Below are positions 12,545 to 35,436 of a DNA stretch of 64,000 nt, in pieces. A program made the translations under genes and the position numbers. The DNA comes from Bdellovibrionales bacterium GWA1_52_35 (lineage in GTDB: Bacteria; Bdellovibrionota; UBA1018): NCBI GenBank assembly GCA_001769805.1, contig MEPO01000016.1, forward strand, positions 1 to 64,000, written 5' to 3'. The stretch's first letter is position 1; the number at the start of each line of letters is the position of its first letter. The notes under the pieces were generated by a model. The model was not told the DNA's origin, did not search any database, and worked only from the letters and a program-made list of their open reading frames with translations.

Positions 12545-12574
12545 AACAGGATCTCCTGTTATAAACTGCACATG
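12545..12574 (+). promoter_or_regulatory. Palindrome and -10-like box immediately before the histidine kinase gene
   Basis: AACAGGA-TC-TCCTGTT (12545-12560) is a 7-bp inverted repeat. It abuts TATAAA (12560-12565), which ends six bases before the ATG. There is no Shine-Dalgarno. This layout fits a leaderless transcript with an operator between -35 and -10. Pattern-based only. Confidence 0.4.
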
Positions 12575-14698
12575 GACATTCTCGGCCAGTCTTCCCTGAT
12601 CCTGGGGCTCACCAGCTTTGCTCTTGGTTTTTCTGTTTTGGCGCGCAATGTTAAAAACAAGCTTTTTCTTTCCTTTGCCTTGGTTACAACTCTGATTGCG
12701 GGCTGGTCGCTTGCATACTTTCTGGAAAAAATCTGGCCGGGCGGAAGTTTTTACCGCTGGCATCTCTTCTTCAATCTCTGGTTGGGTCCCTCCGGACTGG
12801 CCTTCGTCAGAATTCTGGTACGTATTCGCGACCCCCTTAGTCGGCGCCTTCTGGATTTGACTATTTTCGCTGCAATGTCCTTGAGCGTGGCTTTGCTTCT
12901 TCATTTTGATTCGCTTCCCTGGGTGCTGCAGCTGATTTATTTCGCGCCGGGTGCGATTGTTTTTCAAATTTTTCACCTGATGTGGATAGACCGGAGATTG
13001 CGCGCTGGGCTCAAGCGACTCCCGAAGCTGCCCACGGTGGGACTGAGTCGACGGAGCTGGATTTATCTCGGCGGCTTGCTCGTGCTTTCCGTGTCCGTCA
13101 TGGATCATGTGCCGGAGCTGGGCCGGATCATCCCTTCTTTCGGAAATATTGCGCTCACCGCGTATCTTTTCTTCCTCAGTCAAGCCATTACGGAGCAGCG
13201 TTTGCTGAATTTCGGGGCCTTGTTGTCGCGCTTTGTTGTTTTGCTGGCAGTCGCGTTCACACTGACTATCGTTTATTCCGTATTGGTCGCGTGGATTGAA
13301 AACAGTCCGGGACTTTTCTTCCTGAACTCGTTCATCGCATCTTTTCTGATATTGATGCTTCTGGAGCCGCTCCGGACAGTGGTCCGGTATTTCACGCATC
13401 GGCTGCTCAGCAAAGAACATCGCCGTCTCGAACAGACACTGCAGGAGTCTTTGCGCGCGCTCACTGGTATCGTGGATCCGGGTTCGCTCTTTCAATCCAT
13501 CCTGCTGACTTCGGAACAGATTCTGCAACCCGAATGGGCGGCGATTTTCATTTTGCGCCGTGATGGAACCAAGTACCGCAGAGTTCGTCTGGGAGGGCGG
13601 GATCCTCAGGCCGATACTTTGCCGGGTTCGACGATCCCCGCGCTCAAGGAAATACTCGTGGATCATCCGCTGCTCCGGTACTGTGAATCATTGAAGCAGA
13701 GGGGGGAATTGCCGGTTCTGCTGGATCAGGTTTTAGAAAACGAAATTGATCGTTCGACCAGCCGGTTACAGAGAGACAGCCTGGCGGCATTGGTCCAGGG
13801 CCTGAAAGCCTTGGGCTCGAATCTCCTGATTCCGCTTCTGGATGGCGGACGAATTCTCGGATTTGCCGTGATGCGGGTCAATGCGCCTCCGGAACCGTGG
13901 GGGAGTAACTGGGGGCTGTTGCCGATTATTTATCCTTATTATGAACAGGCTGCTCAGACTTTGAGAAGCATGGAAGTCTATGTCCGGCAGCGCGAGAAGG
14001 AACGTCTGGCTACTTTGGGTGAAATGGCCGCGGGTCTGGCGCATGAAATCCGCAACCCCCTGGGTGCGATCAAAGGCGCCGCCCAGTTTCTGGATCCGGC
14101 TTCAGAGCGGCCCGAGAGTCGCTTTCTCCGGGTCATCATCGAGGAAGTGGATCGCCTGAACCGCGTGGTCACTCAGTTTCTGGATTACTCGAAGCCACCT
14201 GCGACGGATTTCAAAACAATTGACCTTTCGATCCTTGCACAGAAAACGGTCGAAATGATGCGTGCTCATCCGACCAAAGCCACGCCCGGAATACTGATTG
14301 AGTTTGTCGATTTCAAGCGCGTTCTTGTGGCGGCAGCACCGGAGCAGCTCCAGCAGGTTTTGATCAACCTGATTCAAAACGCCATTCGGGCTTTGGAGGG
14401 TTGCACGGAACGGACTGAGCCCGGAATGATTCGCGTCAATATTGATGTGGAAGGACTCGGTGCGAACCAGGAAGCGGTGATCGCCGTTGAGGACAATGGG
14501 CCGGGAATCAAACGTGAGCATCTGGATAAGCTGTTCATTCCTTTTTTTACCACTTCGCCGAGCGGTACGGGGCTGGGCCTTTCAATTTCGCAGAAAATCA
14601 TCGAATCCCATAAAGGTCGTATTGAAGTGGCCACGGAAGAAGGGCGCTTTACCCGTTTTTCTGTGATACTGCCGTATTTGCCAACTCTGGAGGACTAA
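12572..14698 (+). CDS. Membrane sensor histidine kinase (NtrB-like output)
   Basis: 708 aa. The N-terminal ~280 residues form seven to eight transmembrane helices, resembling a 7TM-type sensor. A GAF-like region spans about 300-460. The dimerisation/phosphoacceptor box MAAGLAHEIRNPLGAIKGA (phospho-His) is near residue 490. The ATPase has N (INLIQNAIRAL), G1 (VEDNGPGI) and G2 (GTGLGLSI) boxes. The next gene, four bases downstream, is its likely cognate NtrC-type regulator. The input signal is unknown. Confidence 0.9.
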   Translation: MDILGQSSLILGLTSFALGFSVLARNVKNKLFLSFALVTTLIAGWSLAYFLEKIWPGGSFYRWHLFFNLWLGPSGLAFVRILVRIRDPLSRRLLDLTIFAAMSLSVALLLHFDSLPWVLQLIYFAPGAIVFQIFHLMWIDRRLRAGLKRLPKLPTVGLSRRSWIYLGGLLVLSVSVMDHVPELGRIIPSFGNIALTAYLFFLSQAITEQRLLNFGALLSRFVVLLAVAFTLTIVYSVLVAWIENSPGLFFLNSFIASFLILMLLEPLRTVVRYFTHRLLSKEHRRLEQTLQESLRALTGIVDPGSLFQSILLTSEQILQPEWAAIFILRRDGTKYRRVRLGGRDPQADTLPGSTIPALKEILVDHPLLRYCESLKQRGELPVLLDQVLENEIDRSTSRLQRDSLAALVQGLKALGSNLLIPLLDGGRILGFAVMRVNAPPEPWGSNWGLLPIIYPYYEQAAQTLRSMEVYVRQREKERLATLGEMAAGLAHEIRNPLGAIKGAAQFLDPASERPESRFLRVIIEEVDRLNRVVTQFLDYSKPPATDFKTIDLSILAQKTVEMMRAHPTKATPGILIEFVDFKRVLVAAAPEQLQQVLINLIQNAIRALEGCTERTEPGMIRVNIDVEGLGANQEAVIAVEDNGPGIKREHLDKLFIPFFTTSPSGTGLGLSISQKIIESHKGRIEVATEEGRFTRFSVILPYLPTLED

Positions 14699-14701
14699 GA
14701 C

Positions 14702-16132
14702 GTGGCGGGACGGGTTCTGGTCGTCGATGACGAGAAAAATATTACCTTCGTGATGCAAGCGATGCTGGAAAAGGCGGGCTATGAAGCCATCATTTTCAAC
14801 AGCAGCCAGGAAGCTCTGGCTGCGCTCGAAGATGAGGATCCCGATGTTGTTGTTACGGATTTGTACATGCCCGGGCCCAGTGGAATGGATATCCTGGATC
14901 ATTGCAAAGCTGCGCATTCGCAATTGCCCGTTGTTGTGATCACCGCGTACGGAACGGTGGAATCCGCAGTGGCCGCTCTCAAGCGGGGCGCTTTTGATTA
15001 CATCACCAAACCTTTTGAGCAGACGGAATTCCTGAATGTGGTCGCCAAGGCCGTGCGTACGCATCGTCAGCGCTTGAAAGAGCCGGTTCCGGTATTTCCG
15101 CTCCAAGACCCGTTGCTCGAAAAGGACCGTGCTGATTCGCCAGCGAGCGGTGTCGCCATTTCCTCGATCGTGGGGGCGAGCCCGCAGATGCAGGAAGTAT
15201 TCAAAGTCATTTCTAAAATTGCGAATTCCCCGACCACGGTTCTCCTGCAGGGAGAGAGCGGCACCGGGAAAGAACTGGTCGCTTTTGAAATCCATCGCAA
15301 CTCGAACCGGGTGAACAAGCCCTTTGTGAAAATCAACTGCGCGGCGATTCCCGGTACGCTCATTGAAAGTGAATTCTTCGGCTATGAACGAGGAGCTTTC
15401 ACAGGCGCGGTGGGTTCGAAACCAGGACGGTTTGAGCTGGCCAGCGAGGGAACACTTTTTCTGGATGAAGTGGCCGACATGCCGCTCGAGATGCAGGTGA
15501 AGCTTCTGCGTGTTCTGCAGGAACACGAGTTTGAGAGAGTCGGCGGTGTCAATACAATCAAAGTCGATGTGCGGATCATCACGGCCACGAACAAAGATTT
15601 ACAGACGGAAGTAAAAGCGGGTCGATTCCGAGAAGATCTCTTTTACCGGTTGAACGTGGTGCCGATCCGTCTTCCTGCTCTGCGCGAGCGGCACGAGGAC
15701 GTGGATCCCCTGATCCGGTACTTCCTGCAGCAGTTTAACAAAAAATTAAAAAAGAACGTGACGCATCTGACACCCGAGTTGCTTCATGCCCTGAAATCCT
15801 TCGGGTGGCCTGGAAATATCCGGCAACTTGAAAATGTGCTGGAACGAATGGTGCTCATGTCAGAGGGCGAGGCCTTGCATTTTTCGGATCTGCCGCCGGA
15901 AGTCGCCGAGTCGGTCACACCACCGCTGAGCGAAGTTTCGATAGACGGCCAGCCTTTGAGTTTCAAAGAGGTGGTCAAAAGACAAACCCAGTCGGTCGAA
16001 CGGGAGCTGATTGAAAAAGCGCTCGAGGAAACCGGAGGCAACGTCACTAAAGCCGCCGAAAAACTGGGCCTTTCAAGAAAAGGCCTGCAGCTCAAGATCA
16101 AAGAACTAGGGGTGAAGCGTCCACTCGACTAA
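14702..16132 (+). CDS. NtrC-family sigma-54-dependent response regulator
   Basis: Activates sigma-54 promoters when phosphorylated by the adjacent kinase. Domains: receiver (residues 1-125, VVDDEKN with the phospho-Asp in VVVTDLYMPG), AAA+ (about 155-395, Walker A GESGTGKE, sigma-54 contact loop GAFTGA, Walker B TLFLDEVADM) and a Fis-type helix-turn-helix at the C-terminus (GGNVTKAAEKLGLSRKGLQ). The GTG start follows GGAGG by eight bases. Its last 27 bases overlap the convergent gene. Confidence 0.93.
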   Translation: MAGRVLVVDDEKNITFVMQAMLEKAGYEAIIFNSSQEALAALEDEDPDVVVTDLYMPGPSGMDILDHCKAAHSQLPVVVITAYGTVESAVAALKRGAFDYITKPFEQTEFLNVVAKAVRTHRQRLKEPVPVFPLQDPLLEKDRADSPASGVAISSIVGASPQMQEVFKVISKIANSPTTVLLQGESGTGKELVAFEIHRNSNRVNKPFVKINCAAIPGTLIESEFFGYERGAFTGAVGSKPGRFELASEGTLFLDEVADMPLEMQVKLLRVLQEHEFERVGGVNTIKVDVRIITATNKDLQTEVKAGRFREDLFYRLNVVPIRLPALRERHEDVDPLIRYFLQQFNKKLKKNVTHLTPELLHALKSFGWPGNIRQLENVLERMVLMSEGEALHFSDLPPEVAESVTPPLSEVSIDGQPLSFKEVVKRQTQSVERELIEKALEETGGNVTKAAEKLGLSRKGLQLKIKELGVKRPLD

Positions 16133-18296: not shown

Positions 18297-19487
18297 TCAA
18301 CGCCCCATGAAAGCACGCATCAGAACGAAAATCCGGCTGCCATGTGAATATTGACCCAACTGACTTCTGCCCGGCCCCCCCAGAAGATCCGCACCCATTC
18401 CGAGTTCGATCCGTTTCGATACCGGTGCAACGTATTTGAGCTGAATCAAGGTCCCTTGATCAGAAATCACATAACCCATGGTTGCTTCCAATGTCTGCTG
18501 ACCCCAAGTCGGCCCTGAGCCATGGACACTCAACATCAGTTCACGGGATTTTGTATTTTGCCGGATTTCCGACAGCTGCATTGCGGCGTTCCAGGGACCG
18601 AGTCTTGTGTAATCAGCACCCAGAACCCAGGTGGTTTCCCAACCCGAACCACGTTTCGGAGTGTAAACAGTTTCCCAGCGCAAAAGGATTTCCGACAAAT
18701 CGGCTGTTCCTGTCAGTCCAAAGCTCGTCATCCGATCATGAACCGGGTCCAGACGGAGCGTCAACGGCTCCATCTGCAAAATCGAAGCACGATAGTTCGG
18801 CATCCGGTCATACCCATTGAAAACGAAAGCCGAGAGATCAAACGTACCCACCTGCTGTGAAAGCCTGAGACCTGCTTCAGAATTTTCCAAACTGAGCTCC
18901 GGGCTTTGCTCCTCTCCAATAACAATCGCCTGGTCGGGTCCGGCGAGCCCACTTGGAAAAAAATCATTGCTGAGACCGGGGAGCTTATTGAAACTGGGTT
19001 TGGGTATCCAGATCAACTGAAGCGCGCTCCGGCTCCCGATGTACTTTATATTCAAAATTGGAACGGGAATTCGCTGGTACTCCAGATCAAGAAGTCCGAA
19101 TTGCCGGTAGTCCTTGGGATTCACGATATCGGCATAATAGGCGCCGAAAGTCTCACCCCAGATGACCTGCTGATTGCCAGCACGAACCAGGAATTTGCCT
19201 GATTTGTATTGAACATACAAATCGCGAATGACAAGTTCATCCGCCTCAAGCGCGGACAATGTACCCCGCACCGCAATCCGGAAGGACCACGCCTTATTCT
19301 GCTCCCAGTCTTCAAACAAAAGCCCATGCCGATCAACCGCAAGTCCCTTGGATCCAAAGGAATGCACGCCTACCTGCCCGTCGTACTGAAGGGCATAACC
19401 ATTTGCCCGCCCACCAACGGCGCCCCAGATGCAAGGGGAGAGAAGCCATAAAAACAGCGGCAGAAAGCGAAGATAGGCGGATCTCAC
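18297..19487 (-). CDS. Outer-membrane beta-barrel protein, DUF1302-like
   Basis: 396 aa with a signal peptide (to about residue 23) and alternating hydrophobic strands through the length. The segment GNQQVIWGETFGAYYADIVNPKDYRQF resembles the DUF1302/outer-membrane partner proteins often encoded with LolA-like carriers; this assignment is by pattern. The GTG start overlaps the stop of the LolA-like gene (GTGA), with AAGGAG 11 bases upstream. Last gene of a four-gene operon with a LolD-like ATPase and a permease, so it is the likely outer-membrane end of an export chain. Confidence 0.65.
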   Translation of the reverse strand: MRSAYLRFLPLFLWLLSPCIWGAVGGRANGYALQYDGQVGVHSFGSKGLAVDRHGLLFEDWEQNKAWSFRIAVRGTLSALEADELVIRDLYVQYKSGKFLVRAGNQQVIWGETFGAYYADIVNPKDYRQFGLLDLEYQRIPVPILNIKYIGSRSALQLIWIPKPSFNKLPGLSNDFFPSGLAGPDQAIVIGEEQSPELSLENSEAGLRLSQQVGTFDLSAFVFNGYDRMPNYRASILQMEPLTLRLDPVHDRMTSFGLTGTADLSEILLRWETVYTPKRGSGWETTWVLGADYTRLGPWNAAMQLSEIRQNTKSRELMLSVHGSGPTWGQQTLEATMGYVISDQGTLIQLKYVAPVSKRIELGMGADLLGGPGRSQLGQYSHGSRIFVLMRAFMGR

Positions 19488-20227
19488 TCGGCGACGGACT
19501 CCTTGTTAAAAAACCCCTCGTCGAAACTCCTCCTGCGAAAGCCAGAATACTGCAGCTGCGAAATCTTATCCGTGCGCAGTTCGTCCGTGATGACCAGTTT
19601 ACTCAGGACGCTTCGCCCCAAAGCAGGCTTGAATTCCTTATAATATGCATTCTTCAGGGGCTTGCCTGAAAGTGCAAAAAAAGTCGCCTTTTTTGGCAAA
19701 AAGTCCTTTTTACCCACCCAATACCAGAGCCGACTGTAAGTGACCTCTTTGGTTCTGGCAGTGAGTTCCAGCTTGTAACTGTCAGATCCGGAAATCACTT
19801 CGCTCCCCAAAAGCCTGGCGTGGTAATCGGAGCCAAAGTTCACCCGTGCAATATCTCCATTCGCCACTTCGCCGGTCAACCGCTGCTGCAGGCTCACGCG
19901 AGTGGGACGCCTCACATCGGGGACAATAAACCAGAGATTGTTTCCGTTCATCAGCAATTTGCGCCCCCGCAACCTTGCCGGTTCCACGGTGTCAACCAGA
20001 GTCAGATCATTTCCCTTGGAAGACACGTGGTAGGTGGAGTCCGCCAGCAATTTCTTATTCTGAAAATCGGATACCCTTACCTGAAATGAAAACGACCCGC
20101 CGGGACTTCGCGCCAGATCGGCTTTCTCCACGATCTGCTGGGCTGTCAGCCCGGCCGCTGAAGCGAGGCTCGACATAAGGCAGCACATGATCACCGTCTG
20201 CAGGCCCTTGAAGAATGTGTATTTCAT
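19484..20227 (-). CDS. LolA-like outer-membrane lipoprotein-sorting protein
   Basis: 247 aa periplasmic carrier-like protein. Signal peptide to about residue 24 (SSLASAAG). The mature part contains the LolA-like features of the PF17131 group: an early AQQIVEKADLARSPGGSFSF, a TVEPARLRGRKLLM strand and a WYWVGKKDFLPKKATFF strand. It probably shields a lipid or lipoprotein between membranes. The ATG at 20227 has AAGGGGG five bases upstream, a better start than the ATG at 20263 that overlaps the permease. Middle of the ABC-type operon. Confidence 0.75.
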   Translation of the reverse strand: MKYTFFKGLQTVIMCCLMSSLASAAGLTAQQIVEKADLARSPGGSFSFQVRVSDFQNKKLLADSTYHVSSKGNDLTLVDTVEPARLRGRKLLMNGNNLWFIVPDVRRPTRVSLQQRLTGEVANGDIARVNFGSDYHARLLGSEVISGSDSYKLELTARTKEVTYSRLWYWVGKKDFLPKKATFFALSGKPLKNAYYKEFKPALGRSVLSKLVITDELRTDKISQLQYSGFRRRSFDEGFFNKESVAE

Positions 20228-20259
20228 TGTTTCCCCCTTCCGGCCTGGTCCGGTTTTCA

Positions 20260-21480
20260 TCAAATATTATGTTTAAGTGCTTCAACGATCTCGACTTTGG
20301 AGGCCCGAAACGCAGGAATTGCCGCGGCGATCACTGCTGAGGTGATCGTCAGAAGAGCGGCATTCTGGAAGGCGGCAAGGCTAAGCCCGACGTAAATGGG
20401 AAATGGCCCTGTTGCTCCTGGTGCTATCAAAGGAATCTCGAGGACGTTCACCAGCGAAGAAAGCGCAATGGACAGGAAAACCCCGGCAAATGCGCCGGTG
20501 AGTCCAAGCAGCGCGCCTTCAGTCACGAATTGTGCGATCACTTGATGGCGGGTATAGCCCATGGATCTGATTGTGCCGATTTCTCCCGTTCTTTCGAATA
20601 CCGCCATTCCTACTGTATTCAGAATCCCAAGCAATACGAGAGAAAGAATGATCACTTCCAGAAAAATATTCTGTGCGTGATAGTAGGCCTGGAGTTCCCG
20701 AAAAAACTGCGCCAAATCAAACCAGGTTTTGATCCGAAGGGAAGGATCGATCTTCTGCAGCTCACGAGCAAATTCCAGACGAAGATCATCCGTCAAAGCA
20801 GTGGAATCCAGACCGACAATAATCTTCTCGACCAGTCCGGTATCCTGCAGACGCTGCGCAGTCTGCAGTGGCAGGACAAACGTATTTTCGTCCAGTTCTG
20901 AAAGGCCGGTTGTGAACTGTCCACTGACGTCCAGCTCGATTGCGTTGATCACGCCATCGTAGGTATAGGCCAGGATATTCACGGACTCACCGTTCTTCAC
21001 ACCCAGCTTACTCGCAAGCGAACTCCCCAAGAGCGCAGCGTAGGGCTTTTCCTCAGAGAGAGCGTTGCCGGACTTGATCCTCAGCGCATCGATCTTCTGC
21101 TTTTCGCCGGCAACATCAAAGCTGAGGCCCATCGCGGTGACGGAACGATCCCGTGTTCCGATCAATCCGCCGAAAGTAAGGCGTCCCGTGGCGTACGTGA
21201 CATGAGGATTGGATTTCAGGTAAGCGATGATCTTCTGATGATCTTTGATCAAGGCATCCCGTGGATTCTCGGCACTCTTCTCCCAGAACTGCTCGGTTGC
21301 AATCTGCAGATGGCCATACTGGGTGTTGATGGCGATTCCCTGCAGGTCATCTTCAATGCTGCCCACAAAGCCCTGAAAGAGGATAATCGCACTGAAGCCG
21401 CCGGCAATCATTCCGATGCTGAGTGCCGTTCGTCTTTTGTTCCGGAAGATATTTCTAAATGCTATTTTAAGTTGCATCAA
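20260..21480 (-). CDS. ABC transporter permease, MacB/LolE (FtsX) type
   Basis: 406 aa. An N-terminal transmembrane helix (after IAFRNIFRNKRRTALSIGM) is followed by a large periplasmic MacB-PCD-like domain (about 45-265). Three C-terminal helices form the FtsX domain (near 275, 325, 370), with the coupling sequence GEIGTIRSMGYTRHQVI. The ATGA overlap with the ATPase gene shows translational coupling. Works with the LolD-like ATPase as a mechanotransmission or extraction transporter; the cargo is unknown. Confidence 0.85.
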   Translation of the reverse strand: MMQLKIAFRNIFRNKRRTALSIGMIAGGFSAIILFQGFVGSIEDDLQGIAINTQYGHLQIATEQFWEKSAENPRDALIKDHQKIIAYLKSNPHVTYATGRLTFGGLIGTRDRSVTAMGLSFDVAGEKQKIDALRIKSGNALSEEKPYAALLGSSLASKLGVKNGESVNILAYTYDGVINAIELDVSGQFTTGLSELDENTFVLPLQTAQRLQDTGLVEKIIVGLDSTALTDDLRLEFARELQKIDPSLRIKTWFDLAQFFRELQAYYHAQNIFLEVIILSLVLLGILNTVGMAVFERTGEIGTIRSMGYTRHQVIAQFVTEGALLGLTGAFAGVFLSIALSSLVNVLEIPLIAPGATGPFPIYVGLSLAAFQNAALLTITSAVIAAAIPAFRASKVEIVEALKHNI

Positions 21481-22163
21481 ACTGCCTCGCCGTCTTGCAA
21501 ACGAAATACGCGTTTGACCCGATCCAGGACTGCGAGGTCGTGGCTGGATAAGATGAATGTCACGCCGGCATTGATATTCAAGTGCTCCATCAATTCCAGA
21601 ATTTCTCCTCCAGTTTTGCGGTCAAGATTCGCGGTTGGTTCATCCGCTAAAATCACCCGGGGCGTTTTGACCATCGCCCGGGCAATGGCCAGCCGTTGCC
21701 TCTGGCCACCGCTGAGCTGATTGGGGCGATTTCTGAAAAATTTTTCCATTCCAACTTCCCGTAAGGCCTGCTCGGCTCGTTGCCGGCGTTCCTTTGCGGA
21801 GCAGTCCAGCAGAAGCAGCGGATACTCCACGTTTTCCACCGCATTCAAAACCGGTATGAGATTGAAGGTCTGGAAAATGAATCCGACTTTTTTTGCGCGA
21901 AGAATGGAAAGAGCCTTTTCGTCCTTGGTTGCCACGGGTTCCGAATCAAAAAATATTTCACCGCTACTGGGCTGATCGATACAACCGAGAAGATTCAGCA
22001 AAGTCGTTTTTCCGCTACCCGAAGGCCCGGCCAGAGCCATGAACTCGCCTTGGCTGACATTCAAAGTAATTCCATTCAAGGCTGATACTTCCAGATCTCC
22101 CAGTGGGTAGCGTTTAGAGACATTTCTGGCCTCCAGGAGAAAGGGACCGCTTGGTTTATTCAT
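21477..22163 (-). CDS. ABC transporter ATPase, LolD/MacB type
   Basis: 228 aa. Walker A GPSGSGKTTLLN, Q-loop FIFQTFNLIPVLNAVENV, signature LSGGQRQRLAIARA, Walker B VILADEPTANLD and the switch His in LSSHD are all intact. It powers the adjacent permease. The ATG at 22163 starts the domain; in-frame codons back to 22271 read through the probable promoter. No Shine-Dalgarno is seen. TTGCCA-16-TAAAAT (minus strand) ends seven bases before the ATG, suggesting a leaderless transcript. Confidence 0.88.
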   Translation of the reverse strand: MNKPSGPFLLEARNVSKRYPLGDLEVSALNGITLNVSQGEFMALAGPSGSGKTTLLNLLGCIDQPSSGEIFFDSEPVATKDEKALSILRAKKVGFIFQTFNLIPVLNAVENVEYPLLLLDCSAKERRQRAEQALREVGMEKFFRNRPNQLSGGQRQRLAIARAMVKTPRVILADEPTANLDRKTGGEILELMEHLNINAGVTFILSSHDLAVLDRVKRVFRLQDGEAV

Positions 22164-22252
22164 GTAAACGATTTTATAAGACCTCACCCGAATGGCAAGC
22201 ACTGTTACTTGAGTATAAAACATTGATATGAAGAACTTTTTTTCATGACGAT

Positions 22253-22276
22253 TTTGGTCAAGTAATATCAACCAAA
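22253..22276. promoter_or_regulatory. Inverted repeat in the 151-bp divergent intergenic region
   Basis: TTTGGT-N12-ACCAAA lies between the divergent LolD-like and FeeM-PilZ genes, close enough to affect both. A candidate shared operator; no regulator is identified. Confidence 0.3.
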
Positions 22277-22314
22277 GTCCGATAGGTAATCGTCATAGAA
22301 CGGAGGGGAATTCA

Positions 22315-23580
22315 TTGATACGCCGCTTTGATCACATGTGGAAGATACTGCCTTCACGCATTCGCCAGAACGTCATTCGGCGTTCAATTGACGTGACTAG
22401 TGAGACCGGCAAGTACCTGATCAAAGTCGCATCTACTCAAGAGGAGCTCGAAGGCGCCTATCGCCTGCTTTATCTTGCGTACCGTCGACTGGGCATCACC
22501 CCGGCGGATCCCAGTGGTATGCGCTGCAATATTTTTCAGGCCCTGCCTTACACGACGACCATCATCGCCAAGGACCAGGATAAGATCATCGCTACGATTG
22601 CCGTGATCAAGGATTCATCGGTTGGTTTTCCTTCAGACCAGCATTATCGGATTGAGAATGATCATTTTCGTTCGCAGGGCTATCGTTTATCTGAAATCTC
22701 GGCACTCGCCGTTGATCGTGGTTATCGTCGAAATCACGCGATCAGCCTTTCGTTAATGAAGTACGTGTTCCTGTACGCGACCCGTTACATGAACTGCTCC
22801 ATGCTTTGCGCAACAATTCATCCCCGGGCATTTGATTTTTATTCGGGTCTCTTCAATTTCCGGCGGAACGGCAAGGAAATTCAATACCCGTTTGCCAATA
22901 ATGCTCCGGCAATCCACATCAGCCACGATACCTCCACAGCAGCAGGCTTCACAGCCGCAATTTCTGCTCATGTCCCCAAAAATATAAACATTCATCGCTT
23001 CATTTTTGAGGAAAACACCCCTGGTTTTTGTTTTCCCGAACGCGTTGGCGCCACGAACAATTATCTGCTGGATCCGGTCATGACCCCCGAGCTGCTGAAA
23101 ATTCTTTTTGTGGAAAAAACCAATGTCTTCAAAGATGCCTCCCCGGAAGAAAAATCCCTGATCCGAAGCGCCTGGGACCCTCACATTGATCTGAGTGGCG
23201 TCCCCTACCTTTGTGATTCGCCCCCAGCGCGCTCCTTCCGCTATCCTGTAGATGGCCCTGCCGCCCTGCTCTTCAAAGATCGCGTTATTTTCGGCTCCAT
23301 GTACGATATTTCCGAAGGCGGCCTTTTTGTTTCCACCCCCGAAACCGTTGCTTTGAAGTCTGAGTGCGAAATCATATTCAACTTCGCGAATCACTCCTTC
23401 CGAATGCCGGCTGTCGTGCGCTGGCAACAGCCAGGAGTTCATCGTCACCCGAGCGGCTACGGAGTTCAGTTCTCAGGGAATTTTGGCATTTCCAGCCTTA
23501 AGCAGACACTCAAAAGTCTATACAAAATCGCCGAAACAGGGGAGCCCCGAGAGATGGTTCCACACCCAAAAGCTGCTTGA
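22315..23580 (+). CDS. FeeM-like N-acyl amino acid synthase fused to a PilZ domain
   Basis: 421 aa. Residues about 30-210 form a GNAT-related N-acyltransferase of the FeeM (N-acyl amino acid synthase) type (QEELEGAYRLLYLAYRRLG, the SEISALAVDRGYRRNHAI core, and HPRAFDFYSGLFNFR). Residues about 300-395 form a PilZ domain with a short R-x2-R motif (RSFRYPV) and DISEGGLFV, the usual c-di-GMP-binding pattern. This suggests acyl-amino-acid synthesis controlled by c-di-GMP; the product is inferred. The TTG start has GGAGGGG six bases upstream. First gene of a three-gene operon with ThiF and nitroreductase-like proteins. Confidence 0.75.
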   Translation: MIRRFDHMWKILPSRIRQNVIRRSIDVTSETGKYLIKVASTQEELEGAYRLLYLAYRRLGITPADPSGMRCNIFQALPYTTTIIAKDQDKIIATIAVIKDSSVGFPSDQHYRIENDHFRSQGYRLSEISALAVDRGYRRNHAISLSLMKYVFLYATRYMNCSMLCATIHPRAFDFYSGLFNFRRNGKEIQYPFANNAPAIHISHDTSTAAGFTAAISAHVPKNINIHRFIFEENTPGFCFPERVGATNNYLLDPVMTPELLKILFVEKTNVFKDASPEEKSLIRSAWDPHIDLSGVPYLCDSPPARSFRYPVDGPAALLFKDRVIFGSMYDISEGGLFVSTPETVALKSECEIIFNFANHSFRMPAVVRWQQPGVHRHPSGYGVQFSGNFGISSLKQTLKSLYKIAETGEPREMVPHPKAA

Positions 23581-23581
23581 T

Positions 23582-24451
23582 ATGTATTCCGAACTTTTCT
23601 CAAGAAACATCGGTGTAATTTCGCAACGTGAGCAGGATCTCCTGGCCCAGGCCCGAGTCGCAATCGCGGGGCTGGGTGGCGTGGGCGGAGCCTATGCAAT
23701 TACGCTCGCCCGGCTCGGCGTCAATGAATTTCACATAGCGGACATGGATATTTTTAACCCGGTGAATATGAATCGGCAATACGGGGCAACCCTTGCCAAT
23801 TTTGGACGAAAAAAAACCGATGTAATCAAAGAGATGATCCTCTCGATCAATCCTGGCGCGAAGGTGCTCACCTTTGATGATGGTGTGACACCTGCGAACG
23901 TTGATGCCTTTCTGAAGGATGTTCACATTGTCATGGATGGTCTTGATTTCTATGCTTTGGACGCAAGACGTCTCCTTTTTCCCGCTTCAGAAAAGAAAAA
24001 ATTGCACGTCGTCACCTCCGGTCCACTTGGAATGACAACAACGCTCCATGTATTCGGGCCCGGCGCCATGCCGTTTGAGAAATATTTTGACCTCGCCCGT
24101 TGCGCTACTCCCGAAGAGCGGCTGATAGCATTTTCGGTCGGAGTCGGACCGGCGGGACTTCACCTCGGGCACGTAGACCTGAGCAAGGTTGATTTTGAGA
24201 ACCACAGGGCGCCATCGATTGGCACGGCAATACAGCTTTGCGCCGGCCTGGCCTGCACCGAAGCGCTTCGTATTCTGATCGGACGCAAGAGCCCCTTCCT
24301 GGCTCCCAGGTATTTTCAATTTGATCCGGTAAAACTTAGAATCCGCAAGGGCTATCTCCTCTGGGGAAATCGCCACCCCTTGCAACGACTGAAACGCTGG
24401 TTTGTAGCGAGAATGCTTGCCCGCGCAAGGGAGGTTCGAAATCCTTTATGA
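23582..24451 (+). CDS. ThiF/MoeB-family (E1-like) adenylyltransferase
   Basis: 289 aa. The ThiF fold begins with RVAIAGLGGVGGAYAITLARLG, followed by the acidic residue in FHIADMDIFNPVNMNRQYGA (Arg/Gln pocket) and a VMDGLDFYALDARRLL segment. The CxxC zinc pairs of MoeB are absent, and no free catalytic Cys is obvious in the crossover loop, so ubiquitin-like transfer may not occur. ThiF domains of this group are known near or fused to nitroreductase-like domains (Rv1355c-like). The start at 23582 lies two bases after the previous stop; in-frame codons upstream overlap the PilZ domain. Confidence 0.78.
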   Translation: MYSELFSRNIGVISQREQDLLAQARVAIAGLGGVGGAYAITLARLGVNEFHIADMDIFNPVNMNRQYGATLANFGRKKTDVIKEMILSINPGAKVLTFDDGVTPANVDAFLKDVHIVMDGLDFYALDARRLLFPASEKKKLHVVTSGPLGMTTTLHVFGPGAMPFEKYFDLARCATPEERLIAFSVGVGPAGLHLGHVDLSKVDFENHRAPSIGTAIQLCAGLACTEALRILIGRKSPFLAPRYFQFDPVKLRIRKGYLLWGNRHPLQRLKRWFVARMLARAREVRNPL

Positions 24452-25512
24452 AGAATAGAATTCAACAAATTTTGGACCTCGCGGTTCGGGCACCCTCCGG
24501 GGATAATTGCCAACCCTGGAGAGTCGAGTTCAACGGTGAAGAGCTCAGGCTCTTCAATGTACCCGAAATAGATTCCTCCGAATTCAACCGCTATCAGCGT
24601 GCCTCCATGGTGGCTCACGGTGCCCTGCTCGAAAACATCCTGATCTGCTCCTCCGGCTTGAACTTGAAAGCCATTCCCACTCTGCAGCCCAACCCCGCAG
24701 ATCCGGATCTCATTGCAAGCTTTCGCTTTGAGGACTGCGCCTCTCCGCAGGACGCTCACTTCGAAGCGGTCTCAAAGCGTTGTACCAATCGTAAAACGTA
24801 TCAAAAGATTTCTCTGACCTGCTCTGAACGTGAAGCTCTCCTGGCATGCGCCTCCCGACATGCGGGTTGGGGAACTCTGAATTTGGTCGAGAATGAGCCC
24901 GGAAAAACCACGCTCGCTAAAATTTTGGCCACCAATGATCAGGGAATTTTTGAACATCAGCTTCTTCATCGGTTTCTTTTTAAACACATCCGCTGGACCG
25001 AGGAAGAAACACTTCGGACCCGGGATGGCATCGATATTCGAACTCTGGAGCTTTCCAGCATGGATCGCCTGAGTTTCCGGTTACTGAAGTTCTGGCCCCT
25101 GGTTTACCTGCTCAGGAAGGTAGGCGCACTGAACATCGTTGGGCTCAAGGCAAAACAGGTTGCTCTGTCTGCCTCCGCAATTGGCGTGATCAGTCTCGAC
25201 AATACTGAGTCCGCGGATTGGATTCAGGCGGGGAGATTGATGCAAAGAATCTGGCTTGAAGCCGCGCGGCTCCGCCTGAGCTTTCAGCTGATGACAGGGA
25301 TTACGTTTTTAATGCAGGGAGCTTTGGAAAATTCGATCAGCTTTCTTTCAGAGCACCAGCGAAAAGCCCTGCAAAAAAGTCACGAACAGATACTCAGAAC
25401 CGTTGGTCACCCCCCGGGAAATCGGGTTGTGATTCTTTTCCGGGTGGGGCACTCGGCAGAACCCACTGCAACGGCCGTTCGGAAACCGATCGTTTTAAAG
25501 GAATTTTCCTGA
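24448..25512 (+). CDS. Nitroreductase-like protein
   Basis: 354 aa related to the FMN nitroreductase fold. The N-terminus (LDLAVRAPSGDNCQPWRVEFNG) matches the FMN-phosphate Arg/Ser-Asn-x-Gln-Pro-W signature. The middle region (RCTNRKTYQ) and C-terminal half (RLMQRIWLEAARLRLSFQLM) resemble the Rv1355c/THI-associated group. It overlaps the ThiF gene by ATGA, so the two are probably made together. The reaction is unknown: it could oxidise or reduce a modified amino-acid product. Confidence 0.72.
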   Translation: MKNRIQQILDLAVRAPSGDNCQPWRVEFNGEELRLFNVPEIDSSEFNRYQRASMVAHGALLENILICSSGLNLKAIPTLQPNPADPDLIASFRFEDCASPQDAHFEAVSKRCTNRKTYQKISLTCSEREALLACASRHAGWGTLNLVENEPGKTTLAKILATNDQGIFEHQLLHRFLFKHIRWTEEETLRTRDGIDIRTLELSSMDRLSFRLLKFWPLVYLLRKVGALNIVGLKAKQVALSASAIGVISLDNTESADWIQAGRLMQRIWLEAARLRLSFQLMTGITFLMQGALENSISFLSEHQRKALQKSHEQILRTVGHPPGNRVVILFRVGHSAEPTATAVRKPIVLKEFS

Positions 25513-25631: not shown

Positions 25632-25676
25632 TAAAGAGAATCTACTAATTTGTACGTTTCGGGAAAGGTTCCACAA

Positions 25677-28229
25677 GTGAGCACAAATCATCTTCTTAAT
25701 TGGCGTGGGCTAAGATCTTCAAATTACAGTAAGTATTGGATAATACTTATTTTTTCCATGCTAGGCACCACCGCCTGCAGCCCGCAAATCGTAGCACCGG
25801 CCCCCCCAGGGGGAGCACAGTCGAACAATGAAGAGGTAACCATTTCCGCTATAAGCCTCAGTCCGGCTGCCATTACACTTCCAAAGAACAGCGGATATAC
25901 TTACGCCTTCTCAGGCACTGGGGGCGTACCCCCGTATGAGTTCACAGTTTTATCGGGACCGGGGCAGGTCGCATCGAATGGGGTATTTACGGTCGGCGCC
26001 CAGGGGAACACCCAAATAAAAATCACCGATTCGCGTGGCAATACCGCGATCTCCACGATTAACAGCATTCCCTATCTTGCTGATGGCGCAATCCGAGCGG
26101 CCGTGACTGACGGAACTTCGCTCTTCATCGGGGGTGAATTCACCGCAATCCATCCCTATCCCGCTCCCAAGATGGCTGCGATTAATGCCACGACCGGCAA
26201 TCCCGATTTGGCCTTTGATTTACAATCCGGGTTCAACGGTCAGGTCAAGGCAATCGTGACTTCAGGCAACTTCGCCTATGTTGGAGGCCTGTTTACCACT
26301 TACCGGGGAATTGCCGCAAATTACCTCGCCAAAGTGGACTTATCTTCCGGGGAGCTGGACACGACATTCACGCAGGCCACGGGGTTTGACGCTAACGTCA
26401 ATGCCCTGGCCATCCAAGGCGGCGCGCTTTATGTCGGAGGTTATTTTTCACAATATCGGGGTTCAACGGCATCTTCTCTGGCAAAGCTGGACCTGGTATC
26501 AGGTGACTTGGACAGTACCTTCACCCAAGGGACAGGAATCGATAACGAGGTTTACGCATTGGCGGTGAATGACGACGCGCTTTATGCGGGAGGCTGGTTT
26601 TCAACTTACCGAGGAGCATCCGCAAACAATATTGCCAAGATTGATCTTGTTTCAGGCGCGCTGGACACAACCTTCACGCAAGGCGCCGGGTTTGATTATT
26701 ATGTTTCAGCACTCGCTATCCAAGGCGGCGCGCTTTATGCGGGAGGCGCCTTTGGAGAATACCAGGGGACCCCCGCAGAGAGTATCGCCAAACTGGACTT
26801 AACCACGGGCGCATTAGACACCACATTCACGAACCCGACTGCTTTTGACAATTCGGTTGAGGCACTCGCGGTGAACGAGAGCGCAATTTATGTGGGAGGC
26901 TCGTTTTCGAACTACCGCGGAGTAGCGGCCCCGTTTCTTGCAAAGCTGAATTTGGTTTCGGGTGATTTGGATACGACCTTCACGCAAGCCACCGGATTTA
27001 GCGCCAAGATCGGTGCTCTTGCTTTAGATGAAACCGGCCTTTACGCAGGAGGCAGGTTCCTCACCTATCGCGGAGTGCCCGCCAACGGTATTGCCAAACT
27101 GGGCCTGTCATCTGGAATTCTGAACACCACTTTTACGCAAACTGTTGGTTTTAGTGATCCAACCAAAACCAATGTTTCAGTTACCGCGCTGAATTTGAAA
27201 GGAAACACTGTTTACGCTGGCGGCATTTTCTCAACATACCGAGGCACCCCCGCATCTTACATCGCCAAATTCGACTTGGCTTCCGGCCTGCTCGATCAAA
27301 CGTTCACTCAGACGGCGGGCTTTTCGAATTTCGTCCAGGGTCTGGCTCTGGATGGGACCAGCCTCTATGCCGGTGGCCAGTTTACCACCTACCGAGGCTT
27401 GCCAGCCAACTACCTGGCCAAGCTGAATTCCTCATCTGGCAATCTGGATACGGCCTTCTCGCAGGCCACAGGTTTTAGCGGACAAGTGTTTGCCGTTGCC
27501 GCGGATGCAAGCGGTGTTTACGTGGGGGGCTCGTTCACCCTCTACCGTGGTGCAGCGGCCGCGCGCCTCGCCAAGCTCAACTTAGCCACCGGTGATCTGA
27601 ATACTACGTTCACTCAGGCGACGGGAATTAATGCCAATTATGTGAATGCACTCGCACTCAACGACAGTGCGCTCTATGTAGGGGGTAAGTTCACAGCGTA
27701 CCGAGGCACAGCAGCCCTAAACATTGCCAAAGTAGATTTAGTCACGGGAGATCTTGATCCGGCTTTTACCGGGGGTTCAGGATTTAACACCACTGTCAAT
27801 GCACTTGCCTTGAATGAAACTGATCTGTACGCCGGCGGTGCATTTATCAGCTACAAGGGGGCGCCAGCCTACCGCATAAGCAAGGTGGATTTGGCATCAG
27901 GGATTCTGGACACCACGTTTACACAGGCAGCTGCGGGCGCGGGGGGTACTGTCAATACCGTCACTTTGGATGGGAATGACCTCTATATTGGTGGGATATT
28001 TACCACTTACCGAAATGCACCGGCTGTAAGACTAGCTAAACTGAATTCAGCTTCAGGTGCTTTGGATGCAGGGTTCGTTACGGGCACAGGGTTTAATGGG
28101 GCCGTCAATTCCACTTTGAAAGTGGAAAGTTATCTCTTTGTTGGAGGTGCCTTTAGCACCTACAAAGATTTGCTCACACCTGATATCAGTATTTTGGATC
28201 CTTTAACCGGCGACTCGGTTGAATGGTGA
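25677..28229 (+). CDS. Large lipoprotein built of delta-60-like repeats
   Basis: 850 aa. A signal peptide with lipobox TTAC (near residue 35) makes it a likely outer-membrane or surface lipoprotein. After an Ig-like region there are about 13-14 tandem units of roughly 50 residues with consensus [YVGG.F..YRG..A..IAK.DL.SG.LDTTFTQ.TGF], as in the delta-60/DUF5122 repeats, which are expected to fold as a beta-propeller-like array. The GTG at 25677 has GGAAAGG eight bases upstream, better than the TTG at 25650. The repeats are divergent at DNA level. Function unknown; surface adhesion or binding is a guess. Confidence 0.78.
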   Translation: MSTNHLLNWRGLRSSNYSKYWIILIFSMLGTTACSPQIVAPAPPGGAQSNNEEVTISAISLSPAAITLPKNSGYTYAFSGTGGVPPYEFTVLSGPGQVASNGVFTVGAQGNTQIKITDSRGNTAISTINSIPYLADGAIRAAVTDGTSLFIGGEFTAIHPYPAPKMAAINATTGNPDLAFDLQSGFNGQVKAIVTSGNFAYVGGLFTTYRGIAANYLAKVDLSSGELDTTFTQATGFDANVNALAIQGGALYVGGYFSQYRGSTASSLAKLDLVSGDLDSTFTQGTGIDNEVYALAVNDDALYAGGWFSTYRGASANNIAKIDLVSGALDTTFTQGAGFDYYVSALAIQGGALYAGGAFGEYQGTPAESIAKLDLTTGALDTTFTNPTAFDNSVEALAVNESAIYVGGSFSNYRGVAAPFLAKLNLVSGDLDTTFTQATGFSAKIGALALDETGLYAGGRFLTYRGVPANGIAKLGLSSGILNTTFTQTVGFSDPTKTNVSVTALNLKGNTVYAGGIFSTYRGTPASYIAKFDLASGLLDQTFTQTAGFSNFVQGLALDGTSLYAGGQFTTYRGLPANYLAKLNSSSGNLDTAFSQATGFSGQVFAVAADASGVYVGGSFTLYRGAAAARLAKLNLATGDLNTTFTQATGINANYVNALALNDSALYVGGKFTAYRGTAALNIAKVDLVTGDLDPAFTGGSGFNTTVNALALNETDLYAGGAFISYKGAPAYRISKVDLASGILDTTFTQAAAGAGGTVNTVTLDGNDLYIGGIFTTYRNAPAVRLAKLNSASGALDAGFVTGTGFNGAVNSTLKVESYLFVGGAFSTYKDLLTPDISILDPLTGDSVEW

Positions 28230-28293
28230 AATCCTGGTGAGATCTCACTGAAATGCATTGAATATTCGTTTAATTCGATCAGAATCTAGAGCA

Positions 28294-29451
28294 ATGTCCA
28301 AATTAGTTGCGAAGTTGAGGCCGTTAAGAACAAAAATTGATCGCCTTGACCGCGAAATTCTGAAATTGATTTCGGAACGCGCAGATGTCGTTGCTCAGGT
28401 GGGTACGGTGAAGCGACGTCTGGGGCTTCCCATCCGTATTGCTTCTCGTGAAAGAAAAATTCTCCGAACCCTCACTGATCTTAATACCGGTCCGCTGCCC
28501 TCATCGTCCATTGCAGCGATTTTTCATAGTTTAATTGAAGAATGCCGCCGCTTTGAGGCCTCGAGCTGTGAAATCCGTGACAATTCACATTTCGCGCAAT
28601 CCCAGAATCAGGTCAAGACCGTCGCGGTCATTGGCATTGGACTCATGGGAGGATCGCTGGCTCGCGCTCTGTGCAAGTACGCGCCGGAGTATCGCGTGAT
28701 AGGCTTCGATCCAAAATTGTCACGACGTGCGACGACTGAATTTAAATTGACGAACACAATCCAGGAGGCATTACAAGCCGACGTTGTGGCCCTAGCCATG
28801 CCTGTCTCGGCAATTCTTGCCTTTCTCCGGAAAGAAGGAGCTCACCTGCGGCCCGGGACAATTGTCTTTGATCTGGGGAGCACCAAGAAACTGATCGCAG
28901 AGACCGCGAAGCGAACACTTCCGCGAGGGGTATGTTTTGTCGGCGGGCATCCCGTGGCCGGAAAAGCTGTGGGCGGTTTCGCTAACTCTGAGGCGGACCT
29001 GTTCCAGGGGCGGCCCTTCGTACTTTCCGTGGGCTCATCCCCACCTGAGCGCCGGGCGGCGCGCGAAATTGAGCGACTTATTTTGCGAATAGGGGGGCGT
29101 CCTCACCGCATGAACGCTGCTGATCATGATCGGATGCTGGCCCTGACCAGTCATCTGCCTCAACTTCTTGCCACCGCGCTGGCGGCGACTGCCTCACGGA
29201 CACTTGGCAGACGCCTTCCCATTCACGGTAGTGCTTTCTTCGAAATGACCCGAGTGGCGGAGTCAGATTTTGTGGTGTGGAAGGATATCCTCGAGACAAA
29301 CAAACTCTACATTGCAAACATACTGGTTTCCTATCAGAATATTTTACAGTCCTTTATTAATTACGGAGACGGTAGGGCCACCCAAGCTCTTTTCGATGAG
29401 GGGTGCCGATTTCGAAAAAAGCTCCGGCTGAAGAAGGAGTCCTCATGCTGA
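28294..29451 (+). CDS. tyrA: Bifunctional chorismate mutase / prephenate dehydrogenase (T-protein-like)
   Basis: 385 aa. N-terminal chorismate mutase (about 1-90, RTKIDRLDREILKLISERADVV) is fused to prephenate dehydrogenase (Rossmann VAVIGIGLMGGSLARAL, then FDLGSTKKLI and GGHPVAGKAVGGFANSE with the catalytic His). It converts chorismate to 4-hydroxyphenylpyruvate. I chose the ATG at 28294; a TTG at 28258 would add 12 residues. Neither has a clear Shine-Dalgarno. The stop overlaps the next start by seven bases. First gene of the aromatic cluster. Confidence 0.9.
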   Translation: MSKLVAKLRPLRTKIDRLDREILKLISERADVVAQVGTVKRRLGLPIRIASRERKILRTLTDLNTGPLPSSSIAAIFHSLIEECRRFEASSCEIRDNSHFAQSQNQVKTVAVIGIGLMGGSLARALCKYAPEYRVIGFDPKLSRRATTEFKLTNTIQEALQADVVALAMPVSAILAFLRKEGAHLRPGTIVFDLGSTKKLIAETAKRTLPRGVCFVGGHPVAGKAVGGFANSEADLFQGRPFVLSVGSSPPERRAAREIERLILRIGGRPHRMNAADHDRMLALTSHLPQLLATALAATASRTLGRRLPIHGSAFFEMTRVAESDFVVWKDILETNKLYIANILVSYQNILQSFINYGDGRATQALFDEGCRFRKKLRLKKESSC

Positions 29452-30464
29452 TTCTCTTTGAAAAAGACTATACCAAGGCTCAACTCGAGCACGTCATGGA
29501 AAAAGTGAAGGCGACCGGTTGCGAACCCCACCTTGTTCACGGTCTTTTCAAGGTTACGATAAACATCATAGGCGATGACACAAGGCTTGATCCGGAAATT
29601 TTCAAAAGTTATGAAGGTGTTGAGGATGTCATTGCTGTTTCGAAGCCCTTTCCCCTTGTGGGACGGGAGTTCAAGCCAGAGGATACCGTCGTACGGACTC
29701 ACAACGTCACCTTTGGTCCAAACCATTTTGTCGTGATTGCCGGACCTTGCGCTGTTGAAAGCGAAGAGCAGACGTTACGCATCGCCCGAGCAGTCAAGAA
29801 GGCCGGTGCCCAAATTTTGCGCGGCGGCGCCTTCAAACCGCGAAGTTCACCTTATGCATTCCAAGGCATGGGAGTCGAAGGACTCAAGATACTCGACATC
29901 GCACGCAAAGAAACGGGTATGCCGGTGATCACAGAACTCCTCGACGTTCGTGACCTGGACGACATTTGCAACTACGCCGACATCATTCAGATCGGTACAC
30001 GCAATATGTCGAATTTTTCGCTTCTGAAGGAAGTCGGTAAAACAAGGAAGCCAGTCATGCTCAAACGAGGCATGTTGGCTACGATCGACGAATGGCTCAT
30101 GGCGGCTGAATATATTTATCATGAAGGCAACACCCAGGTGATTCTTTGTGAGCGGGGAATACGCTCCTTTGACTCTAAATACACACGCAACATCGTCGAT
30201 CTCAGCGCCATACCCGTTATCAAGCATCTCAGTCATCTTCCAATCAGTGTTGATCCGAGTCACGCGACCGGCCGCCGCGATGCAGTTGGGCCGATGACGT
30301 TAGCCGCTTTGGCGGCGGGCGCAAATTCCGTCATGATCGACGTTCATGACGACGCCGAGAGCGCGCTTTGTGATGGAGCGCAGGCGATCACACCACACCT
30401 CTTCGAAGGAATCATGGCGGGGATTCGCAATCTGTCAAAGGCGCTTGGTAAGGAATTGACATGA
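29445..30464 (+). CDS. aroF: 3-deoxy-7-phosphoheptulonate (DAHP) synthase, type I-beta
   Basis: Condenses PEP and erythrose-4-phosphate, the first shikimate step. 339 aa with an N-terminal ACT/ferredoxin-like regulatory domain (about 1-70) and a TIM barrel (GPCAVESEEQTLRIARA, RGGAFKPRSSPYAFQGMG, SVDPSHATGRRDAVGPM), as in the Thermotoga-type enzyme where tyrosine feedback uses the N-domain. The ATG at 29445 has AAGGAG five bases upstream. Followed by aroA with an ATGA overlap. Confidence 0.95.
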   Translation: MLILFEKDYTKAQLEHVMEKVKATGCEPHLVHGLFKVTINIIGDDTRLDPEIFKSYEGVEDVIAVSKPFPLVGREFKPEDTVVRTHNVTFGPNHFVVIAGPCAVESEEQTLRIARAVKKAGAQILRGGAFKPRSSPYAFQGMGVEGLKILDIARKETGMPVITELLDVRDLDDICNYADIIQIGTRNMSNFSLLKEVGKTRKPVMLKRGMLATIDEWLMAAEYIYHEGNTQVILCERGIRSFDSKYTRNIVDLSAIPVIKHLSHLPISVDPSHATGRRDAVGPMTLAALAAGANSVMIDVHDDAESALCDGAQAITPHLFEGIMAGIRNLSKALGKELT

Positions 30465-31744
30465 CCCTGGCGCTCGACCCCGTTCAGCAAATACAGGGGA
30501 CGATCGAAGTACCCGGGGATAAATCAGTCTCGCACCGTTCTCTGGTTTTTGGCGCGATCGCCGAGGGCGTGACCGAGGTGAGTGGTATTCTCAACAGCGC
30601 GGATGTTCGTTCGACTGAGACCTGCCTCAGTGCTCTGGGGGTCTCCTTCATCCGGCGTGAGGATAAAGTTTTGGTACATGGTCGCGGGCTTCATGGTCTT
30701 CAAGTGGCATCACACGTGCTCGATTGCGGTAATTCCGGGACGACCACTCGGATTTTGATGGGTTTGCTTGCGGGGCAAGCTTTCGATACGGTTTTGACGG
30801 GAGATGAATCGATTCAGCGACGGCCGATGAAACGCGCGGCCGAACCGCTCCGGGAGATGGGCGCGCGCATGGATCTTATCCGAGGGGAATTCGCACCGAT
30901 CACGATTCATGGCAGTCGTCTTCGGAGCATTGACTATTCCCTCAAGGTTGCGAGCGCCCAAGTCAAGACCGCACTTCTCATGGCGGGATTGTATGCTGAG
31001 GGGACCACGACTATCCGGGGGCAAATTGCCAGCCGCGATCACACTGAACGAATGCTTCCTCACTTCGGAGTTAAGCTCGAAATGGCTGACGACGCAATCC
31101 GTATCCGCTCGGGTCAACGTCTGAGCGCTTGCCCGATTCGGGTTCCTGGAGATCCGTCTTCCGCCGCATTCTGGATGGGGGCAGCATGTCTGGTTCGCGG
31201 CTCCACGCTTGAAATCCGTAATGTCTCGCTCAACCCCACACGAATCGGACTCATGAAGGTTCTGGCGCGTATGGGAGCCAGCATTGACGTGGAACAGACC
31301 GAAACCAGCCCCGAACCTAGCGGTCATATCCGAATCTCGGCACCGCACGGGTTGCGCGGAACCGAGGTCCTGCCGAGCGAGGTTCCCTCCATGGTTGATG
31401 AAATTCCGCTACTTGCGGTAATCGCTTCGCAGGCCGAGGGCGAGACCATCGTTCATGGAGCCGAAGAACTCCGTGTCAAAGAGAGTGACAGAATTGTTGC
31501 TACGGTGACGAATCTGCGCGCCATGGGCATAGAAATCGAGTCTTTCCAAGACGGCTATCGGCTGCGCGGGCCGCAACGCCTTGTAGGTGCTAAAATTGAC
31601 TCGTTCCTGGATCACCGGATCGCGATGTCCTTCGCAATCGCAAGTCTGGTTGCCCGAGGTCGTACCGAGATTCTTCGGCCTGATTGCGTGGACATTTCCT
31701 ATCCCGAATTCTTTCAGGTGCTTCAGCGGATCGGCCATGCCTAA
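30461..31744 (+). CDS. aroA: EPSP synthase (3-phosphoshikimate 1-carboxyvinyltransferase)
   Basis: 427 aa enzyme of the sixth shikimate step. Motifs GDKSVSHRSLVFGAIAEG near residue 20, LDCGNSGTTTRILMGLLAG near 88, GDPSSAAFWMGAACLV near 230 and RVKESDRI near 345 are all present, so it looks functional. Overlaps aroF by ATGA, and its end overlaps aroE by eight bases. Confidence 0.97.
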   Translation: MTLALDPVQQIQGTIEVPGDKSVSHRSLVFGAIAEGVTEVSGILNSADVRSTETCLSALGVSFIRREDKVLVHGRGLHGLQVASHVLDCGNSGTTTRILMGLLAGQAFDTVLTGDESIQRRPMKRAAEPLREMGARMDLIRGEFAPITIHGSRLRSIDYSLKVASAQVKTALLMAGLYAEGTTTIRGQIASRDHTERMLPHFGVKLEMADDAIRIRSGQRLSACPIRVPGDPSSAAFWMGAACLVRGSTLEIRNVSLNPTRIGLMKVLARMGASIDVEQTETSPEPSGHIRISAPHGLRGTEVLPSEVPSMVDEIPLLAVIASQAEGETIVHGAEELRVKESDRIVATVTNLRAMGIEIESFQDGYRLRGPQRLVGAKIDSFLDHRIAMSFAIASLVARGRTEILRPDCVDISYPEFFQVLQRIGHA

Positions 31745-32663: not shown

Positions 32664-32676
32664 GAGGGAAACTGCT

Positions 32677-35415: not shown

Positions 35416-35436
35416 ATGCCCACCCTCATGAAAAAT

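Follow-up and report, generated by a model that had tools for sequence, protein, structure and literature searches.

A divergent locus in a Bdellovibrionales genome pairing acyl-oxazolone-type synthesis genes with a Lol-like chain as a candidate outward route

What joins two gene sets that diverge from one short intergenic region, the one encoding enzymes of acyl amino acid chemistry and the other a chain resembling the lipoprotein-sorting Lol machinery? The question is raised by positions 18297 to 25512 of a 64,000-nucleotide stretch of Bdellovibrionales bacterium GWA1_52_35 (positions 1 to 64,000 of contig MEPO01000016.1, assembly GCA_001769805.1), here called the window. We lean toward reading it as a divergent synthesis-and-export locus, in which a plus-strand trio would make an acyl-oxazolone or N-acyl dehydro-amino acid and a minus-strand quartet would serve as its outward route. 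The first-pass annotation had described seven genes around a 151-bp divergent gap, and open reading frames and profile matches confirmed the genes, their places, and their domains, as follows.

18297..19487, minus strand: DUF1302 (PF06980) outer-membrane beta-barrel (Pfam 39.7 bits, cut-off 23.2; AlphaFold2 model)
19484..20263, minus strand: LolA-superfamily periplasmic carrier, LolA_like PF17131 (Pfam 126.9 bits; NE2245 3BUU 175 bits)
20260..21480, minus strand: LolC/E-like permease (FtsX and MacB_PCD), single copy (Pfam, NCBIfam; lolCE 91.5 bits)
21477..22163, minus strand: LolD-like ATP-binding cassette (ABC) ATPase (LolD model 223 bits; Walker A, LSGGQ)
22164..22314, no strand: shared divergent intergenic region, 151 bp (direct reading)
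22315..23580, plus strand: N-acyl amino acid synthase FeeM with a C-terminal PilZ fusion (FeeM 129.9 bits, PilZ 52.1 bits)
23582..24451, plus strand: ThiF-type adenylating cyclase, TyzB / OxzB N-terminal type (PRK08223 328.5 bits)
24448..25512, plus strand: nitroreductase-superfamily flavin-dependent oxidase, TyzC / Rv1355c C-terminal type (Rv1355c-family model 200.6 bits)

Because the genes on each strand overlap or nearly touch, both strands look like operons. The minus-strand junctions overlap by 4 bases (19484/19487, 20260/20263, and 21477/21480), as does the junction between the ThiF and nitroreductase (NTR) genes (24448/24451). The ATPase starts with ATG at 22163, in keeping with a LolD-like start, and FeeM-PilZ starts with TTG behind GGAGGGG. 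The conserved ThiF start is the ATG at 23582, two bases behind FeeM, the listed start at 23483 being too early. A promoter search of the 151-bp intergenic region returned one promoter-like minus-strand site, not above chance, and a shared promoter motif was rejected because nothing exceeded chance.

The trio matches, by family membership, the published acyl-oxazolone pathway (OxzAB, TyzACB, and TrzAS), and the product of the locus is probably an acyl-oxazolone, a fatty, ring-closed amino-acid compound. With M. tuberculosis TyzACB and TrzAS, an aromatic amino acid is N-acylated, cyclized by ThiF in an ATP-dependent step, and desaturated by an O2-dependent oxidase to give acyl-oxazolones, and OxzAB of Pseudoalteromonas rubra, as far as it is recounted in the same two papers, follows the same chemistry (PMC10404671, PMC12856293). 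These systems encode together an acyltransferase, a ThiF cyclase, and an NTR-type flavin oxidase of the same families as in the window; the window differs in its three separate genes, in the PilZ domain fused to the acyltransferase, and in the adjoining Lol-like ABC chain. Clusters accompanying N-acyl dehydrotyrosines (stieleriacines, thalassotalic acids, and kyonggic acids) likewise hold an N-acyl amino acid synthase, ThiF, and a nitroreductase but, unlike the window, are described in PMC12479983 with no mention of a transporter.

Each enzyme is of a known kind, and the reactions proposed for the locus are carried over from close families. The first domain is PF21926 (129.9 bits), as in FeeM/TyzA-type amino acid N-acyltransferases, and the FeeM-PilZ AlphaFold2 model (predicted local distance difference test score [pLDDT], 86.3) matched FeeM 2G0B (template modeling score, 0.84 on target). 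The ThiF protein scored 328.5 bits with NCBIfam PRK08223 (cut-off 266) and also matched PRK14851 and PRK14852, and GGVGG, NxNRQ, K111, and D152/D155 (numbered from the 23483 start) were invariant across five relatives. PRK14851, a fusion of ThiF and nitroreductase, scored 322.9 bits, and the corresponding window genes overlap, as expected of an oxazolone-type cyclase. Residues 3-347 of the nitroreductase matched the Rv1355c-family profile at 200.6 bits, consistent with a TyzC/Rv1355c-type oxidase; the score lies under the full-length cut-off because that model is a ThiF-NTR fusion. The Acg family was also matched (133 bits; structure 2YMV). All three enzymes occur naturally as one protein in the window's order, NCBIfam PRK14852, where FeeM, ThiF, and nitroreductase occupy profile positions 28-199, 308-588, and 621-981; PRK14851 comprises the last two parts of this unit. 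The acylated amino-acid-derived product of the first-pass annotation is thus supported and sharpened to an acyl-oxazolone or N-acyl dehydro-amino acid of a published pathway.

The same genome carries, on contig C9 of G000 (228000-256000; L114, L115), another FeeM-like gene, adjoining a ThiF-like frame that has diverged. About 13 kb away lie an MMPL-LolA fusion and then a DUF1302 barrel, and the region is possibly a second set, of RND type.

Is the quartet on the other strand simply a Lol system? Its ATPase, permease, and carrier have counterparts in LolCDE-LolA-LolB sorting. The ATPase has the Walker A motif GPSGSGKT and LSGGQ, and the permease is predicted to cross the membrane four times, its first two spans being separated by a domain of ~225 residues. 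Their scores nevertheless missed the curated cut-offs (LolD, 223 bits versus 307.75; lolCE, 91.5 bits versus 362). The carrier matched PF17131 only and not PF03548, the family of canonical LolA; its closest solved structure is NE2245 (3BUU) of Nitrosomonas, at 175 bits, and it shares the signature G[EQ]VANGD[IL][AS]R.NF..DY with ThiF-linked relatives. In the place of LolB stands the DUF1302 barrel, whose AlphaFold2 model (pLDDT, 89.6) comprises an N-terminal helix (residues 3-24) and then a barrel with PDB matches to AlgE and porins. The canonical PF03548 LolA of this genome lies on contig C27, away from the locus, and two lolCE homologues near 300 bits are also encoded elsewhere, so the quartet would be an additional, dedicated chain. 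A canonical Lol system was therefore rejected, and the quartet, by its profile matches, is Lol-like but not a Lol system. It is improbable, too, that the quartet is a second Lol pathway serving a special lipoprotein, perhaps within the same stress or surface program as the lipid: among named families, LolD and LolCE match the ATPase and permease best and the carrier has a LolA-type fold, but the missed cut-offs, the PF17131 carrier with its barrel partner, the canonical genes elsewhere, and the use of an RND protein as pump at other loci all argue otherwise. No membrane-fusion protein or TolC-type channel was found within the quartet, as a MacAB-TolC-type system would have.

Whether synthesis and export belong together was judged from other species. 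The 80 ThiF loci most like the window ThiF were kept, and gene content was counted by a six-frame profile search of 45 full-flank loci from other species. A LolA-like gene was present in 16 of the 45; 15 had it together with DUF1302 within ~10 kb, and 14 of these also had a permease or MMPL pump. Carrier and barrel were accompanied by an MMPL/RND pump at eight loci and by permease and ATPase at five. The ThiF loci make up ~0.9 million of the ~178 million bases searched (about 0.5%), and genomes holding them have about one LolA-like carrier each; still, 15 of the 44 strong PF17131 hits (>100 bits) fall in ThiF loci, where ~0.2 would be expected by position. Carrier and barrel are thus enriched well over 50-fold beside ThiF, across several phyla and gene orders. 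This enrichment, together with the three-way enzyme fusion, indicates that the grouping is more than chance.

Individual loci point the same way. In the deltaproteobacterial loci L026 and L029, ATPase, permease, LolA, DUF1302, ThiF, and NTR genes follow in that order on one strand as a single block. Among 58 genomes of relatives in the window's family, close ThiF (E < 1e-120) and close permease (E < 1e-100) matches occur in the same 4, from three genera. In another genus (L105; 43-67% identity), FeeM-PilZ diverges from the same quartet without ThiF; in G005, which shows this arrangement, ThiF lies on another contig. All 10 quartets read in the Nitrosovibrio family adjoin an exosortase-type acyltransferase of the TIGR03694 group, a FeeM/acyl-homoserine lactone synthase-like N-acyltransferase, with ThiF present in three loci. 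NE2245 has close relatives adjoining such an acyltransferase within the same quartet type; unlike the window locus, its family often has two permeases, and in place of FeeM-PilZ it has a TIGR03694-like acyltransferase.

An RND pump often stands in for the ABC pump at ThiF loci, and the exporter label changes 16 times on the ThiF tree. In the best-supported mixed sister pair, L057 (ABC) and L059 (RND), ThiF is 89% and FeeM 78% identical, whereas the carriers are 26% and the barrels 24% identical, so an entire export chain has been replaced by a different one with an equal layout.

These observations bear on the alternative that the trio makes an acyl-oxazolone and the quartet, a mere neighbor, exports some other lipid or hydrophobic compound. 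We consider this unlikely, given the enrichment across phyla and gene orders, the single operons of L026 and L029, and the interchange of ABC and RND chains beside near-identical enzymes, but the two halves do occur apart, which favors it. The following points weigh against a dedicated synthesis-and-export locus. On the LolA tree, neither FeeM nor a TIGR03694-like gene nor ThiF lies near 45 of the 69 loci of quartet type, and within the phylum the same quartet type is frequent without FeeM or ThiF (most of L106-L113 and L162-L201). Conversely, 26 of the 49 ThiF loci in the tree lack a LolA-like/DUF1302 pair nearby. FeeM is absent from the short contigs of L026 and L029, and FeeM copies elsewhere in G103 and G104 are only weak or distant. 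Since the loci were chosen for likeness to the window ThiF, the rate of one-third does not extend to all oxazolone loci. Actinobacterial tryptazolones are mostly retained in cells (PMC12856293). The first-pass annotation had named attachment of Lol-like genes to unrelated cargo as a sign against the pairing, and this was partly seen, as quartets also lie within other lipid-type clusters with an AMP-ligase, a UbiA-like protein, and a phosphoenolpyruvate (PEP)-utilising enzyme.

Of 340 phylum genomes, 166 had LolA profile matches, although many of these matches were weaker or belonged to other subtypes. Beyond the four window-family genomes used to find loci, only L174, L175, and L200 had both FeeM and ThiF among phylum loci. 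The synthase-link label changes at least 7 times on the LolA tree, which is compatible with repeated gain or with ancestral linkage and losses. Of the divergent supercluster first proposed, one part held up, namely joint conservation, in several phyla, with an export chain directed to the outer membrane; exclusivity did not, given quartets without the enzymes and ThiF loci with an RND pump or without carrier and barrel. As judged from gene co-location, the link between the two halves is real but modular, and the quartet probably serves as a general exporter of lipid metabolites that has been paired on repeated occasions with acyl-amino-acid synthases, not as part of a fixed seven-gene system.

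A second recurrent lipid-type cluster was observed with related quartets or carriers (L106-L113, L184, L188-L190, L195, and L198), comprising an AMP-ligase, a UbiA-like protein, a PEP-utilising enzyme (PPDK_N), a DUF3419 protein, and a diacylglycerol kinase.

How might the synthesis-and-export locus work? In the cytoplasm, FeeM-PilZ would attach a fatty acyl group to an amino acid (all relatives studied use an aromatic one), ThiF would activate the carboxylate with ATP and close the oxazolone ring, and the nitroreductase-type oxidase would desaturate it, yielding an acyl-oxazolone or, once this is hydrolyzed, an N-acyl dehydro-amino acid. The carrier would then pass the compound on to the outer-membrane DUF1302 barrel. 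The model is built on the observed domain content, gene order, recurrent co-location, pump-type replacement, and folds; from these we infer the cargo, the direction and steps of transport, and any PilZ control.

Could the transport instead run inward, with barrel and carrier importing a hydrophobic compound for the trio to modify? This we regard as very improbable, more so than a second Lol pathway. LolCDE/MacB-type ABC proteins and HAE3 RND pumps are outward-directed families. The DUF1302/DUF1329 proteins PP_0765/PP_0766 of Pseudomonas putida, which are related to AmeABCD, are required for growth on Tween 20 (PMC10866462) and speak for uptake, but AmeABCD of Castellaniella, whose barrel is of this type, has a role in efflux and tolerance (PMC6394551). 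AmeABCD (monoterpene efflux) and the AmeD lineage are also the nearest described export layout, combining DUF1302, a LolA-superfamily protein, and an inner-membrane pump (PMC6394551). The window shares the DUF1302 barrel with a LolA-superfamily periplasmic protein; AmeABCD has an HAE3 RND pump and a DUF1329 carrier, whereas the window has a LolCDE-like ABC permease and ATPase and PF17131. The RND version of such a chain does adjoin ThiF in other species.

More tentatively than for the locus itself, we put forward as a possibility that a LolA-like carrier, a DUF1302 barrel, and an exchangeable ABC or RND pump form a general envelope module that brings to the outer membrane not lipoproteins but small lipidic metabolites. 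Such a module would have been combined repeatedly with lipid-synthesis operons of different kinds, most clearly with acyl-oxazolone/acyl-amino-acid operons, with PilZ input added here.

Control by cyclic di-GMP (c-di-GMP), as the first-pass annotation had proposed, is a fair guess. The PilZ domain keeps the D-x-S-x-x-G motif (as DISEGG), and the C-terminal part of the FeeM-PilZ model matches the PilZ domains of CeSA and of Alg44, which binds c-di-GMP; the R-x-x-x-R motif is absent, with R-x-x-R only. FeeM-PilZ fusions recur in 10 of 14 homologues tested, and M. tuberculosis trzAS adjoins c-di-GMP turnover genes (PMC12856293).

No function is agreed for oxazolones and N-acyl dehydro-amino acids, and their outward route in Gram-negative bacteria is not described in the papers found. 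In mycobacteria, mmpL9 is close to tyz, and genes of c-di-GMP turnover are close to trz, with no carrier or outer-membrane barrel described in PMC10404671 and PMC12856293. A literature search whose scope did not include the original OxzAB paper likewise found no link of a LolCDE-like chain or LolA/DUF1302 pair to oxazolones or acyl amino acids. A co-conserved chain that swaps its pump would imply that in many lineages the outer membrane or the outside is the intended destination of the product or of its acyl-amino-acid precursor. It also offers a cargo hypothesis for NE2245 (3BUU), a solved LolA-like structure without an explained function, and suggests metabolites, in place of lipoproteins, as the cargo sorted by some Lol-like proteins.

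Several neighbors recur. A macrolide-type glycosyltransferase gene stands beside oxazolone/quartet loci (L023, 11111-12367; L022, L021, L047, L098, L104, L206-L208, and L211), hinting that some products are glycosylated. A PrsT-type tetratricopeptide repeat protein of PEP-CTERM/exosortase systems lies near about half of the full-flank ThiF loci (L032, L036, L040, L050, L057, L059, L063, L066, L070, L098, and others), and many of these loci use the exosortase-associated acyltransferase TIGR03694. Exosortase/PEP-CTERM control of the window locus was rejected, as the similarity of the nearby kinase and regulator (12572-16132) to PrsK/PrsR stays below cut-off and no exosortase is encoded in the genome.

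Aromatic amino acids are the precursors of known oxazolones, and a nearly complete aromatic amino acid pathway lies on the same strand at 28258-36561 (chorismate mutase-prephenate dehydrogenase, DAHP synthase, EPSP synthase, shikimate dehydrogenase, chorismate synthase, shikimate kinase, and 3-dehydroquinate synthase). This may be coincidence, as its first gene, used as a query, found no match in relatives' loci. A class IV aminotransferase is encoded within the same interval on the opposite strand. Directly behind the nitroreductase gene, at 25650-28229, lies a gene for an 859-residue lipoprotein-like protein with DUF5122 beta-propeller repeats.

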